NCBI GenBank assembly: GCA_021158625.1
Contig: JAGGUG010000007.1
Coordinates: 1 to 34,463 of the forward strand
Length of the DNA stretch: 34,463 nucleotides
DNA from: Candidatus Omnitrophota bacterium
Lineage (GTDB): Bacteria; Omnitrophota; 4484-213
Reading direction: 5' to 3'
Shown here in pieces: positions 7,831 to 28,983 of the stretch. The notes under the pieces are model-generated. The model was not told the origin of the DNA. It did not search any database and was given only the letters and a program-made list of their open reading frames with translations. The position numbers and the translations under genes are program-made. Position 1 is the stretch's first letter. The number at the start of each line of letters is the position of its first letter.

Positions 7831-7850
7831 TCTCTTCTCACCTCCCTGTT

Positions 7851-7988
7851 CCTTATAAGGGCAGTTTCCTTATAGAGGCGATAAAGATGCTGCCTCTAAT
7901 GATATCTATAGAGAAGTTGCCCCTATATTACCTTTCCTTCCTCGCCATAAGCGGAAGCCGAAGCCCCGAAGTTTCGGGGCTGAGGATA
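7851..7988. repeat. Two-hairpin dispersed element, nested copy A1
   Basis: ccttataAGGGCA...[ccttatagaggcgataaagatgctgcctct]...TGCCCCTatatta plus agccccgaagtttcggggct hairpin. Confidence 0.75.
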
Positions 7989-8074: not shown

Positions 8075-8350
8075 TTACCAGGAACGCCGTCCGCCGCGAC
8101 CGCCTTCAGCGCGAGGGCGAGCCTCATTAACATTAAGCGTTCGTCCTCCCAGCTCCTTGCCGTTCATAGCGCTGATTGCCGCCTTGGCTTCCTCCTCAGC
8201 GGGCATCTCTACAAATCCAAACCCTCTGGATTTGCCGGTATATCTGTCTTTGATAATAACAGCAGATTCAATCTGGCCAAAACTTTCAAAGGCCTTACGC
8301 AAATCCTCATCAGTGAGGTCGTATGCCAAATTACTTACATAAATATTCAT
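8075..8350 (-). CDS. RRM-domain RNA-binding protein
   Basis: 91 aa; MNIYVSNLAYDLTDEDLRKAFESFGQIESAVIIKDRYTGKSRGFGFVEM (RNP2 and RNP1), RG-rich C-terminus. Confidence 0.96.
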   Translation of the reverse strand: MNIYVSNLAYDLTDEDLRKAFESFGQIESAVIIKDRYTGKSRGFGFVEMPAEEEAKAAISAMNGKELGGRTLNVNEARPRAEGGRGGRRSW

Positions 8351-8492: not shown

Positions 8493-8550
8493 AACTTCTC
8501 CTTGTTTTGTTCAATAACACTAAATTTTTCTATATCTTCACCACCTCCTC

Positions 8551-8640
8551 TTCCTTATAGGGACGCCTTCCTTATAGAGACGATAGAGAAGTTGCCTCTA
8601 ACAATACTTATAGGGAAGCTGTCCCCATATTACCTTTCCT
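8551..8640. repeat. Two-hairpin dispersed element, nested copy A2
   Basis: ttccttatagGGACg|ccttccttatagagacgatagagaagttgcctctaacaata|cttatagggaagctGTCCccatattacctt. Confidence 0.75.
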
Positions 8641-8715
8641 TGTAATAGACCCTTCGCTCCGCTCAGGAGCAAAAATTTTTACAAAGTAAGAATTTTGGCG
8701 GAGGGAGTAGGATTC

Positions 8716-8841
8716 ACCCAGCACTTTTTTGACTGGCGGAGAGGGAGGGATTCGAACCCCCGGTGGATATAAAACCCACAGCAGTTTTCAAGACTGCCTC
8801 TTTCAACCACTCAGACACCTCTCCTCAAAAAAGTGCTGGGT
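8716..8841. repeat. 17-bp perfect inverted repeat bracketing tRNA-Ser(UGA)
   Basis: acccagcacttttttga (8716-8732) and its exact reverse complement tcaaaaaagtgctgggt (8825-8841). Confidence 0.95.
8737..8824 (-). tRNA. tRNA-Ser(TGA)
   Basis: GGAGAGGTGTCTGAGTGGTTGAAAGAGGCAGTCTTGAAAACTGCTGTGGGTTTTATATCCACCGGGGGTTCGAATCCCTCCCTCTCCG then CCA; loop CTTGAAA. Confidence 0.96.
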
Positions 8842-8879
8842 TCAAGACCGCTCGGATCAACCACTCTGGCAACCTCCCT

Positions 8880-9023
8880 TTCCTTATAGGGACGCCTTCC
8901 TTATAGAGACGATAGAGAAGTTGCCTCTAACAATACTTATAGAGAAATTGTCCTCATCTTACCTTTCATTGCCCCGACGAAACTCGGAGAGCCGAAGGTT
9001 TGAAACTTTGAGGTTGAGGATAG
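8880..9023. repeat. Two-hairpin dispersed element, nested copy A3
   Basis: ttatagggacgccttccttatagagacgatagagaagttgcctctaacaatacttatagagaaattgtcctcat. Confidence 0.75.
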
Positions 9024-9083: not shown

Positions 9084-9749
9084 CTATATCATAGAACGCA
9101 CAATTTGAGACGTCCTCTCTATAAAATCACTAAATGTAATCTGCTTTGACAAACAAGAAAGAATCACTACCAGAATAAGTAGATTAACGATATAAATTAG
9201 GGGGAGGGAAAAAATCCGTCCGCTGCGGACAATATCCTTCTGCCCCTGACCTAAAAAATAAAAAGTCAAAAAAATATGAAACGCCCAGGTAAATCCGACA
9301 AAAAAGAGAAAAAAAGCAAGGTATCTCGTGACATCTAAAAACAGAGCAAGAATAAAATAAAAAGTCACCACAAAAATGGTATAAATAGGAAATAGATAAG
9401 GCGAGAGAGAAATGAAAAAATTTGATTTCGTGCTTCTTACTCTTCCTCCTCTTGAGGAGATATGAAATGCCCTTACCCTCCCCCGACAAAGAAAAACAGA
9501 AATAGCATGGGTCAATTCGTGCCCAAAGATATAAAAAAGAATCGGTTTCTTAAATAAAAAATGGATTAGGGCGTAGCCAGCTATTCCTAATAGAAAATAA
9601 CTTTCTTTGGTTCTGATTGTAAAAGAGGATATCTCTCTTAAAAAGGCAACAGTAAAAACAACACCAATAAAGCCTAAAAGGACTCCCAGAATGATTTTAA
9701 AAAAAGAGATAGAAAAACGCTGAAATCTATTTTTTAAATTCTTTTTCAT
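9084..9749 (-). CDS. Membrane protein with M50-like HExxH motif
   Basis: 221 aa, multi-pass; FGHELTHAISVFLCRGRVRAFHISSRGG with HELTH motif. Confidence 0.7.
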   Translation of the reverse strand: MKKNLKNRFQRFSISFFKIILGVLLGFIGVVFTVAFLREISSFTIRTKESYFLLGIAGYALIHFLFKKPILFYIFGHELTHAISVFLCRGRVRAFHISSRGGRVRSTKSNFFISLSPYLFPIYTIFVVTFYFILALFLDVTRYLAFFLFFVGFTWAFHIFLTFYFLGQGQKDIVRSGRIFSLPLIYIVNLLILVVILSCLSKQITFSDFIERTSQIVRSMI

Positions 9750-10995
9750 TAATGTATTTCTGCAAAGCAGGGGGAATTTTTACGCTCCCATTCTCCTCCT
9801 GATAGTTCTCTAATAAAGCAACAACGGTGCGGGCAAGAGCAATCCCTGAACCATTTAAGGTATGTACATATTTCAGGCCCTCTTTTGTGCGGTATTTTAT
9901 ATTCGCCCGCCGAGCCTGAAAATCTTCAAAGTTGGCACAACTGCTTACTTCCAGCCAGGCATTACTACCGGGGGCAAAAACCTCCAAATCGTAACATTTG
10001 CTGGAGGCAAAACTGAGTTCGGAACTGCAGAGCAAAACCAGGCGGTAAGGAAGCCCTAATCTCTGCAAAACCTCCTCGGCATCGCCCACGAGAGATTCTA
10101 ACTCATCATAAGAATCCTCTGACTTAACAAACTTTACTAACTCTACTTTATCAAATTGATGCACGCGAATTAACCCCTTTGTTTCCCTGCCATAACTCCC
10201 GGCCTCCCGCCGAAAACAAGGTGTATAGGCAACATATTTCAGAGGCAAATTCTGGGCCTCCAAGACTTCATTGCGATGCAGATTGGTGAGAGGCACCTCG
10301 GCCGTGGGAATCAAAAATAAATCGTCTTTTTCAAGACAATACATATCTTCTTCCAATTTAGGCAACTGCCCGGTATTAAACATTGAACTCCGATTTACCA
10401 ACAAAGGCGGCCAAATCTCCTGATAGCCCTTTGCCCTATGCACATCCAAAAAGAAGTTTATGAGTGCCCTTTCTAAAAGTGCGCCCTTTCCTTTAAACAA
10501 AGGAAAATTAGAGCCGCTCATCTTTGCCGCGCGCTTGAAATCTAAAATATCTAAATCCTCTCCTAATTGTAGATGGGTCCTGGGAGAAAAAGAAAATTTT
10601 CTTAACTCTCCCCACTGACGCAGAACTTTATTATCCTCTGAACCTTCTCCCAGAGGCACAGAGGGGTGCGGAAGATTGGGGATACCTGATAACAAAGCCT
10701 CTATCCTCTGCTCAATCTGGCGTAGATTCCCTTCCTTCTCTTTTATCTCTCTTGCCCACTCGCGCACCTCAGCAATCTTCTCCTGAACATCAATATTTTT
10801 TCTTTTTAACCCTGCAATCTCGTCACTTTGTTTATTCCTCTTTGCCCGTAATTCCTCAACCCTGCTCTTTAACTCTCTCGCCTGCGAGTCTAAGTTCAAT
10901 AAAGCATCAAGGCCCACTTTTTCCTTTTTTGCCACCAATCCTTTCTTAACCAATTCTAAATTTTGGCGAATAAATTTAATGCTCAACATTTTCAA
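9727..10995 (-). CDS. serS: Serine--tRNA ligase
   Basis: 422 aa; N-terminal coiled coil, GYQEIWPPLLVN, IPTAEVPLTNLH, PCFRREAGSYGRETKGLIRVHQFDKVELVKF, LNGSGIALARTVVALLEN. Confidence 0.98.
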   Translation of the reverse strand: MKMLSIKFIRQNLELVKKGLVAKKEKVGLDALLNLDSQARELKSRVEELRAKRNKQSDEIAGLKRKNIDVQEKIAEVREWAREIKEKEGNLRQIEQRIEALLSGIPNLPHPSVPLGEGSEDNKVLRQWGELRKFSFSPRTHLQLGEDLDILDFKRAAKMSGSNFPLFKGKGALLERALINFFLDVHRAKGYQEIWPPLLVNRSSMFNTGQLPKLEEDMYCLEKDDLFLIPTAEVPLTNLHRNEVLEAQNLPLKYVAYTPCFRREAGSYGRETKGLIRVHQFDKVELVKFVKSEDSYDELESLVGDAEEVLQRLGLPYRLVLLCSSELSFASSKCYDLEVFAPGSNAWLEVSSCANFEDFQARRANIKYRTKEGLKYVHTLNGSGIALARTVVALLENYQEENGSVKIPPALQKYINEKEFKK

Positions 10996-11165: not shown

Positions 11166-12617
11166 TCACCCCTTTACCACTCCCAACGGCTTCATCCGAC
11201 AAACCTTTTTGGAGATGCCCGCACCGGCAACAACATCCACTACATCAGCCACATCCTTATATGCCTGCGGGGCTTCTTCGGCTAATGTCTCTCTGCCGGC
11301 TGTGCGGACAATTATCCCTTTACTTCTTAATTCTTGAGACAGCGCTTTTGCGTTTATTGATTTTATTGCCGCTGTCCGAGACATCACCCTGCCTGCTCCG
11401 TGACAAGTGGAATAAAAAGTCTCTGCGGCTTTCTCTGTACCCACCAACAAAAACGAACATCTCCCCATATCGCCGGGGATAATCACCGGCTGACCGACTC
11501 TTTTATATCTTAAGGGGACATCGGGATGCCCTGGTGGAAAGGCACGCGTTGCCCCTTTTCTGTGCACACAGAGGGTTTTTTCTTCTCCATCAACGATATG
11601 CTTTTCAAACTTGGCAATGTTATGGGCAACATCGTAGATTAAATCCATCCCTAAATCCTGCCACTTCTTACCAAAGAATTTTTCAAAGCCCTTTCGGACC
11701 AAGTGCATCAAACTCTGGCGGTTTGCCCAGGCGTAGTTTGCTGCACAGCACATCGCCGCAAAATAATTCTTTCCTTCCTTGGAATTTAAGGGAGCGCAAA
11801 CAAGCTGGCGGTCGGGAAGTTTTTCTTTATCAAAATAAGGAAGCATCATCTTTAGATAATCATCGCAAACCTGATAGCCAAAACCTCGCGAGCCGGTATG
11901 AATCATTACCGTGATTTGCCCCTTAAATAAATTGAAAACCTCGGCTATCTTTGGCTCATAAACCTCATCGATAACCTGAACCTCGCAAAAGTGATTTCCA
12001 CTGCCCAATGTGCCTACTTGGGCCCTCCCGCGTTCATATGCCCGCTGGGAAATTTTATCCGGGTTCGCTCCTCTTATTGCTCCTCTCTCTTCAGTGAACT
12101 CTAAATCTCTTTCTACGCCATAGCCCCGCCGCACTGCCCAACCAGAGCCCTCTACTATTACTTTTCTTAACTCCTCGTGGGAAATCTTCATTTCACTTTT
12201 TGAACCCAGGCCAGCAGGAACTTCTTGAGCCAAAGTATTTATCAATCCCTCAATTTTGTCTCTTATCTCACCCTGCTTAAGATTAGTGCGGATGAGTCGA
12301 ACTCCGCAGTTTATGTCGAATCCCACACCGCCAGGCGTAATTACCCCTCCATCTTCAGGGTCGGTTGCGGCTACCCCGCCAATGCAAAAACCATAGCCCC
12401 AGTGGATGTCCGGCATTGCCAGAGAATGTTTAACTATACCCGGCAGAAAGGCGGCATTGGCTACCTGCTCGGGCGCATAGTCGCGGAAGATATCTTTTAA
12501 TAATATTTCGTTAGCGTAAATCCTCCCCGGCACACGCATCCCGGATTTATAGCTTTGGGGAATCTCATAACAGTAGTCATTGACTTTTTGTATTGGCCCG
12601 CTCCAAGGTTCTTTCAT
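11166..12617 (-). CDS. rtcB: RtcB RNA-splicing ligase
   Basis: Likely start MKEPWSGPIQKVNDYCYEIPQ at 12617 (tracked ORF to 12686 includes repeat-derived sequence); MPDIHWGYGFCIGGVAA, GGVGFDINCGVRLIRT, LGSGNHFCEVQ, VMIHTGSRGFGYQVCDDY, PGDMGRCSFLLVGT, CHGAGRVMSR. Confidence 0.97.
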   Translation of the reverse strand: MKEPWSGPIQKVNDYCYEIPQSYKSGMRVPGRIYANEILLKDIFRDYAPEQVANAAFLPGIVKHSLAMPDIHWGYGFCIGGVAATDPEDGGVITPGGVGFDINCGVRLIRTNLKQGEIRDKIEGLINTLAQEVPAGLGSKSEMKISHEELRKVIVEGSGWAVRRGYGVERDLEFTEERGAIRGANPDKISQRAYERGRAQVGTLGSGNHFCEVQVIDEVYEPKIAEVFNLFKGQITVMIHTGSRGFGYQVCDDYLKMMLPYFDKEKLPDRQLVCAPLNSKEGKNYFAAMCCAANYAWANRQSLMHLVRKGFEKFFGKKWQDLGMDLIYDVAHNIAKFEKHIVDGEEKTLCVHRKGATRAFPPGHPDVPLRYKRVGQPVIIPGDMGRCSFLLVGTEKAAETFYSTCHGAGRVMSRTAAIKSINAKALSQELRSKGIIVRTAGRETLAEEAPQAYKDVADVVDVVAGAGISKKVCRMKPLGVVKG

Positions 12618-12639
12618 AGGTTTAAAACCGAGCACCAAA

Positions 12640-12816
12640 ACAGTAAAGCACCAAATCACAAATTCCAAATCACAAATAAATCTCAAATTTCAATACTCAA
12701 TGACCGAAACAAAATAAAGCCAATAACGAACTGTTTGAAATTTGGTGCTTGAAATTTATTTGTTATTTGGTGCTTGGTGCTTGGAATTTCTCAACTTTGG
12801 CGAAGCCAAAGTTGAG
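12640..12816. repeat. Long imperfect palindrome plus stop-proximal hairpin, copy C1
   Basis: caccaaatcacaaattccaaatcacaaataaa...tttatttgttatttggtgcttggtgcttggaattt, then the perfect hairpin ctcaactttggc-gaa-gccaaagttgag adjoining the archease stop. Confidence 0.8.
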
Positions 12817-24461: not shown

Positions 24462-24479
24462 TTTTTCACCCCCTCTTTC

Positions 24480-24617
24480 TTTATAGGGACGCCTTCCTTA
24501 TAGAGGCGATAGAGAAGTTGCCTCTAACAATACTTATAGAGAAGTTGTCCCCATATTACCTTTCCTTCCTCGCGAAGCGAGCCCTGTACCGTTCTGGTGC
24601 AGGGCGAGAGCCGAAGT
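24480..24617. repeat. Two-hairpin dispersed element, nested copy A6
   Basis: ttatagggacgccttccttatagaggcgatagagaagttgcctctaacaatacttatagagaagttgtccccatattacctt. Confidence 0.75.
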
Positions 24618-28765: not shown

Positions 28766-28849
28766 TTACAAAAACCTCTTGGCATTCTCCTTACACCTCA
28801 CTTTACTTCTACGAAGCCAAATACATAAGTATTTGGCGAAGTAGAGTGG

Positions 28850-28896
28850 TGGCGGTGATTGGAATCGAGCCAATGACATAACGGGTATGAGCCCCG
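28850..28896 (-). pseudogene. 3'-half tRNA-Met remnant
   Basis: Reverse complement ggctcatacccgttatgtcattggctcgattccaatcaccgcca-cca; T-arm, acceptor 3' strand and CCA present; 5' half replaced by ccatagtttctaacgg. Confidence 0.65.
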
Positions 28897-28909
28897 TTAG
28901 AAACTATGG

Positions 28910-28983
28910 TGACGAAGGCTGGATTTGAACCAGCGACATAGCGGGTATGAGCCGCTTGCTCTACCAGACTGAGCTACTCCGTC
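28910..28983 (-). tRNA. tRNA-Met(CAT), elongator-like
   Basis: GACGGAGTAGCTCAGTCTGGTAGAGCAAGCGGCTCATACCCGCTATGTCGCTGGTTCAAATCCAGCCTTCGTCA then CCA; loop CTCATAC. Confidence 0.93.

Follow-up and report, generated by a model that had tools for sequence, protein, structure and literature searches.

One of the described systems closest to the locus reported here is SegB of phages T4 and T6, which two reports present as a free-standing GIY-YIG homing endonuclease inserted among phage tRNA genes (PMC2988022) and cutting within tRNA genes at the motif RAWTSGAAC (PMC13096335). We examined a 34,463-nt stretch (the window) of a Candidatus Omnitrophota bacterium, contig JAGGUG010000007.1 of a metagenome-assembled genome (MAG) that is 90% complete (G000), where an intact tRNA-Ser(UGA) gene lies between the two broken ends of another tRNA-Ser(UGA) gene. 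On balance, we think it somewhat probable that this locus is the scar of a selfish element that targets tRNA genes, namely a decayed GIY-YIG element that carried a replacement tRNA. The likeness to SegB lies in the GIY-YIG domain, in a gene placed among tRNA genes and in a cutting motif that is the reverse complement of the T-loop, where outer 3′ pieces start. SegB differs in belonging to phages rather than to a bacterial chromosome, in that the window has no nuclease gene left, and in being tied to tRNA-array exchange and amplification; the accessible parts of the two reports do not mention a native tRNA split around a replacement (PMC2988022; PMC13096335).

Four other systems share traits with the locus. 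At the tRNA-Thr(GGU) of Caldiarchaeum, a putative mobile element separates a 5′ fragment from a downstream, complete tRNA with the same identity, but the case is archaeal, the element is 1.8 kb long with a DNA recombinase, the intact tRNA has introns, and there is neither a GIY-YIG gene nor an inverted-repeat bracket (PMC3293823). Insertions in rRNA genes of the Candidate Phyla Radiation (CPR) likewise place, in uncultured bacteria, GIY-YIG open reading frames (ORFs) within genes for structural RNAs, and they match neither group I nor group II introns; they concern rRNA instead of tRNA, however, and the accessible part of the report describes no replacement copy (PMC11270868). Repetitive extragenic palindromes (REP) and miniature inverted-repeat transposable elements (MITEs) resemble the 17-nt arms described below, which come from a dispersed hairpin family with similar termini, whereas the loop in the window is a complete tRNA gene, and a second copy with that interior was not found. 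Finally, archaeal split tRNA genes also have separated halves with a base-paired helix at the break, but the halves in the window do not make a tRNA and the intact gene does the work (PMC3218864).

The locus was compared with two genomes of the same genus (G001 and G002) and one of a sister genus (G003). It lies on the minus strand, in the order of a dispersed 100-nt repeat, the native 5′ half, one arm of an inverted repeat, the inner tRNA, a single G, the other arm, the native 3′ end and an AT-rich hairpin:

8842-8878, minus strand: 5′ half of the tRNA-Ser(UGA) that was native and is now broken; it covers positions 1 to about 37 and stops within the anticodon loop (...GCGGTCTTGAA)
8825-8841, minus strand: 5′ arm of the inverted repeat, ACCCAGCACTTTTTTGA, found by repeat search and adjoining nucleotide 1 of the inner tRNA
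8734-8824, minus strand: inner (replacement) tRNA-Ser(UGA), intact and with CCA, found by ARAGORN and Rfam
8716-8732, minus strand: 3′ arm of the inverted repeat, TCAAAAAAGTGCTGGGT, separated from the CCA by one base (G8733) and absent from G002
8696-8715, minus strand: 3′ end of the native tRNA-Ser(UGA), T-loop to CCA, GAATCCTACTCCCTCCGCCA, 20/20 identical to the end of the native gene in G003
8666-8695 (approximate bounds), minus strand: AT-rich hairpin, the downstream flank of the native gene, adjoining the native 3′ end

An earlier note on this DNA had described a tRNA-Ser(UGA) bracketed by a perfect 17-bp inverted repeat within the remains of another tRNA-Ser. ARAGORN and the Rfam covariance model agreed on the inner gene (8737-8824 without the CCA; 58.1 bits), which is the sole tRNA-Ser(UGA), and the only reader of serine UCA codons, among the 41 distinct tRNAs found in the genome. 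The arms match at 17/17 positions, and the 5′ arm does abut nucleotide 1 of the tRNA, its first base (A8841) being at once the final base of the outer 5′ piece (8841-8878); the 3′ arm does follow closely on the CCA, although exactly one base separates them, a correction to the 2 nt of the note. The chance of a perfect 17-bp bracket in 60-nt flanks is about 2 × 10−7 per tRNA, and a bracketing repeat longer than 11 bp occurred at just one other (L208) of 110 Omnitrophota tRNA loci. The AT hairpin that the outer 3′ end abuts is found, as the note had it, after other tRNAs in the window, namely tRNA-Ser(GGA) and tRNA-Arg(GCG). Rfam returned nothing except tRNA at the locus at gathering and E-value thresholds; matches to sX4 and to a plastid family fell below gathering, rested on the tRNA itself and were rejected.

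The state before the break is preserved in G003, which holds an unbroken tRNA-Ser(UGA) at the orthologous place, between the same 221-aa and RRM protein genes (sequence GGAGGGATGGCTGAGCGGACGAAAGCGGCGGTCTTGAAAACCGTTAGGTGATGAGCCTCGTGGGTTCGAATCCTACTCCCTCCGCCA). The outer 5′ piece aligned with the 5′ half of this intact gene (L055 696-733) and with the broken halves in G001 and G002, and the last 20 nt of the intact gene equal the outer 3′ piece; furthermore, the acceptor strand GGAGGGA of the G001 stump pairs fully with TCCCTCC of the 3′ piece in the window. Thus, both outer pieces derive from one native tRNA-Ser(UGA) type, so that the outer gene is a tRNA-Ser as first proposed and, more precisely, one of the same identity as the inner gene. 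These results indicated that the nesting is an insertion into, and a functional replacement of, the native gene. A tRNA-Ser(UGA) occupies the same chromosomal place in more distant Omnitrophota as well, which makes the locus an old home of this essential tRNA. With the native gene the inner tRNA shares just 74% identity; its closest match (85%) is a tRNA-Ser(UGA) from another Omnitrophota family.

Comparison with G003 also revealed that about 29 native nucleotides, comprising the 3′ strand of the anticodon stem, the variable arm and the 5′ strand of the T-stem, are gone between the two pieces. A split or trans-spliced tRNA was rejected on this ground, as the fragments do not sum to one tRNA, and so was an intron spliced by RtcB, since exons lacking these nucleotides give no functional tRNA and the proximity of RtcB is not evidence by itself. 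A tRNA island formed by a tyrosine recombinase was rejected as well, the cassette having no ORF and the tested neighbors being housekeeping genes, and the outer 3′ end is no att site of such an island, because it belongs to the native gene and is not a copy of the inner one.

Three states of the locus exist within the one genus. G002 has kept the native 5′ half, an identical 5′ arm and the inner tRNA, while the 3′ arm is missing and the native downstream hairpin comes directly after the inner CCA, a state that fits a deletion between two CTCCGCCA copies. In G001, the 5′ half is broken in the anticodon loop by hairpin repeats, which are followed by a GIY-YIG ORF (93 aa; PF01541, 54.7 bits) and then by the same inner tRNA (95% identical to that of the window), within which the stop codon of the ORF lies; neither arm of the inverted repeat is present.

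These states bear on the proposal, also made in the earlier note, that the bracket is a novel precursor architecture affecting RNase P, RNase Z or RtcB. That a 17-bp leader-trailer helix should regulate processing by RNase P, RNase Z, RNase III or RtcB is in our view highly improbable. The helix as such is predicted, for in RNA folding (z = −5.7) it continues directly from the acceptor stem, with GCCAG bulged out, and RtcB is encoded nearby (11166-12686). Yet G002, whose neighboring protein is 96% identical, retains the same tRNA without the 3′ arm and therefore does not need the bracketing helix; G001 does without both arms; a comparable helix was seen only at L208 among the 110 loci; and the outer pieces lack the segments named above. 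The arm loss in G002, the absence of both arms in G001 and the rarity elsewhere together suggested that the helix is a by-product.

As for how the nesting arose, the native tRNA-Ser(UGA) would have been broken in the ancestor of the genus, with its ends now in the anticodon loop and the T-loop, and a complete, divergent tRNA-Ser(UGA) would have been installed between the pieces. The putative agent is a free-standing GIY-YIG homing nuclease, still at this place in G001, which would cut the tRNA gene, whereupon repair would copy in the nuclease gene together with an intact tRNA and restore decoding. In the lineage of the window, the nuclease gene would later have been lost, leaving the rescue tRNA, two stumps and, at the borders, two halves of a hairpin repeat. 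Cleavage, homing and this loss are steps that we infer from the arrangement of genes and fragments. The SegB motif lends support by analogy, as RAWTSGAAC is the reverse complement of the T-loop, at which the outer 3′ piece of the window starts.

Across the phylum, we sampled 103 GIY-YIG ORFs in fetched loci. Intact tRNAs lay within 400 bp of 32 of them, against about 3 expected (P ~3 × 10−24), and 14 had their end immediately upstream of a same-strand intact tRNA, where about 0.25 were expected (P ~1.5 × 10−20); both P values are rough, since expected counts were derived from how densely tRNAs lie in a single closed genome (G072), and the ORFs were best-scoring matches. In 8 of the 14 cases (Gln, Pro, Asn, Glu, Asp, Lys, Arg, and Ser), a 5′ fragment of the same tRNA stood upstream; most of these fragments stop within or close to the anticodon arm, and hairpin repeats often occupy their loops. 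In a protein tree limited by few alignment columns, 12 of 15 such tRNA-adjoining genes fell within one supported clade of 29, the GIY-YIG proteins beside tRNA-Gln in three different families formed one clade (support 100/99), and the G001 protein paired (100/100; 61% identity) with one beside a tRNA-Ser of another family. These data indicated that the nucleases are associated, statistically and phylogenetically, with particular tRNA genes; such a pattern of target by clade is what homing to particular tRNA genes predicts, and it was found for the GIY-YIG family and not for the window itself. No earlier description of a GIY-YIG/tRNA association in CPR or Omnitrophota was found in the open-licence literature, a scope that makes this absence weak.

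Ordinary tandem duplication or divergence of tRNA-Ser genes, with later decay and deletion and without any mobile element, appeared distinctly unlikely against this background. Tandem tRNA-Ser genes do exist in other Omnitrophota (L006), and the 100-nt dispersed repeats that flank the locus make local rearrangement plausible; but the outer pieces flank the inner gene and both come from one gene type, the inner tRNA has diverged from the native one to the extent given above, and nested breaks beside nuclease genes recur across families.

The arms themselves have a traceable source. Short hairpins of one family, as well as MITE-like repeats of about 110 bp, end in their sequence CCCAGCACTT(T/A)TT; one such hairpin directly follows tRNA-Gly in the same genome, and two come after tRNA-Arg genes in G002. 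The ~110-bp repeats, with ends CCCAGCACTTATTTAC, are intergenic in G000, G002, and G003 (L061, L062, L072, L074, and others). Some repeat copies read CATTGAACCCAGCACTT, so that the ends of the repeat correspond to TTGAA (anticodon loop) and GGGTTC (T-arm). Repeats related to the arms carry other interiors; the genome held no copy with the same interior, and the exact arm core recurred elsewhere in it only in the hairpin at tRNA-Gly. GAA is present at both ends of the cassette, as a target-site duplication would be, although the native positions differ (37 versus the T-loop). The arms thus look like two halves of a dispersed hairpin repeat that would have come to bracket a tRNA.

A non-autonomous MITE- or REP-like hairpin element (termini TTGAACCCAGCAC...GTGCTGGGTTCAA) with a captured tRNA-Ser(UGA) could alternatively have recombined into the native gene through the short end matches (TTGAA in the anticodon loop and GGGTTC in the T-arm), with no homing nuclease and with the GIY-YIG gene of G001 as a separate arrival. 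This we regard as rather unlikely. The match of the arms to dispersed hairpins and ~110-bp repeats in G000, G002, and G003, the CATTGAACCCAGCACTT flanks, the many tRNA fragments that hold hairpin repeats in their loops and the second bracketed nested tRNA (the tRNA-Leu of L208, with unrelated arms) all speak for it, whereas no further copy with this interior was found, the arms are similar but not equal to the MITE ends, and the break falls in or close to one and the same loop in all three congeners, one of which carries a nuclease gene. The earlier suggestion that a cassette landed in a tRNA-Ser gene is supported by the unbroken site in G003 and the second, independent nested case at L208; its view of the inverted repeats as the ends of a transposing cassette stays conjectural, the arms belonging to a dispersed hairpin family and G001 having a GIY-YIG gene instead.

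Several observations weigh against a decayed GIY-YIG element. No GIY-YIG gene lies between the stumps in the window (126 bp) or in G002, and 73 of the 103 GIY-YIG genes are not directly beside a same-strand tRNA. The substitute has not been recoded at the other loci, where the intact tRNA and the outer fragment do not differ in sequence. The missing native nucleotides imply that the event was not a clean insertion, and the right-hand junction is known from one MAG only. This last point, together with the flanking repeats and the MAG origin of the contig, would also suit an assembly artefact, either two tRNA-Ser loci joined or a palindromic chimera, which we consider scarcely credible: G002, a separate assembly, has the identical left junction and 5′ arm, the 3′ piece bears the downstream hairpin of the native gene itself, and a second tRNA-Ser(UGA) copy was not found in the genome.

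The other bracketed case, L208 in genome G021, is an intact tRNA-Leu(UAG) within a 15-bp inverted repeat; the tRNA-Leu around it has the same sequence and is split in its D-loop. The arms at L208 have CAG on both sides and show no sequence relation to those of the window. Among the 38 tRNAs of G072, a closed Omnitrophota genome, bracketing repeats did not exceed 8 bp, and 3′ fragments accompanied two (Lys and Arg). Those two belong, with L133, L141, and L198, to a class of 3′ fragments beginning in the T-loop. At L133 (1131-1312), L141 (562-731), and L198 (862-1001), roughly 140 to 180 nt separate the intact tRNA from the duplicated 3′ end, which starts at the T-loop, and a GIY-YIG gene of a different clade often follows; L133 and L141 share GAAGGGAGC..GACCT(T/A)ATGGGAGC..GGCGCC. 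The L133 segment (about 180 nt, structured) had no Rfam match, and these segments may represent an RNA element, as yet undescribed, with tRNA T-loops as its insertion site. At L206, L185, L208, L160, L133, L192, and L193, hairpin repeats occupy exactly the D-loops or anticodon loops of tRNA fragments, as if palindromic elements preferred tRNA loops.

In the wider context, we regard the locus as a new variant of tRNA-associated homing elements. Tentatively, and with less confidence than in the origin of the locus itself, we suggest that Omnitrophota, and perhaps other bacteria, may host a chromosomal "cleave and rescue" family, in which a GIY-YIG nuclease that cuts a tRNA gene travels with an intact copy of the same tRNA; the window would then be a late state, its divergent rescue tRNA permanent and its nuclease gone. 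If true, this would explain how a divergent tRNA gene can take the place of an essential one at the latter's own locus, render the long-standing puzzle of tRNA fragments beside intact tRNAs testable with single small proteins, and provide a natural counterpart of engineered cleave-and-rescue systems in bacterial chromosomes, aimed at many tRNAs. Annotators would likewise be warned that a helix bracketing a tRNA, or a tRNA-like fragment close by, can be a scar instead of a processing signal.

The surroundings of the locus comprise the following:

8872-8971, minus strand: dispersed 100-nt repeat upstream of the native 5′ half, with a second copy downstream (8543-8642; 92% identical)
9084-9749, minus strand: 221-aa membrane protein with a HELTH motif, upstream neighbor and syntenic marker
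9727-10995, minus strand: seryl-tRNA synthetase (SerRS; Pfam), two genes upstream of the tRNA
8075-8350, minus strand: RRM RNA-binding protein (Pfam), downstream neighbor, its position kept in G002 and G003

The 221-aa protein had no Pfam match; its identity to the counterparts is 96% in G002, 73% in G001, and 71% in G003, and SerRS is found upstream of the tRNA in G002 too. The 100-nt repeat has many copies in G000 and G002, with further ones in the window at 7840-7939 and 24467-24567, and the copy at 8543-8642 continues into AGGAGGTG; a mobile leader or promoter repeat is a possible description. Elsewhere in the window (28849-28983, minus strand), the 3′ half of a second tRNA-Met-like gene, running from the anticodon stem to CCA, comes after tRNA-Met(CAT) at 28907-28983; the acceptor end of this half, CACCGCC, fits the tRNA-Met type of the sister genus (GGCGGTG, L312) and not the intact one, so this may be a second replaced tRNA in the same window. 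Elsewhere in the genome (C76; L025 381-485), a 15-nt 5′ fragment of tRNA-Phe (positions 18-32) lies just upstream of the intact tRNA-Phe.
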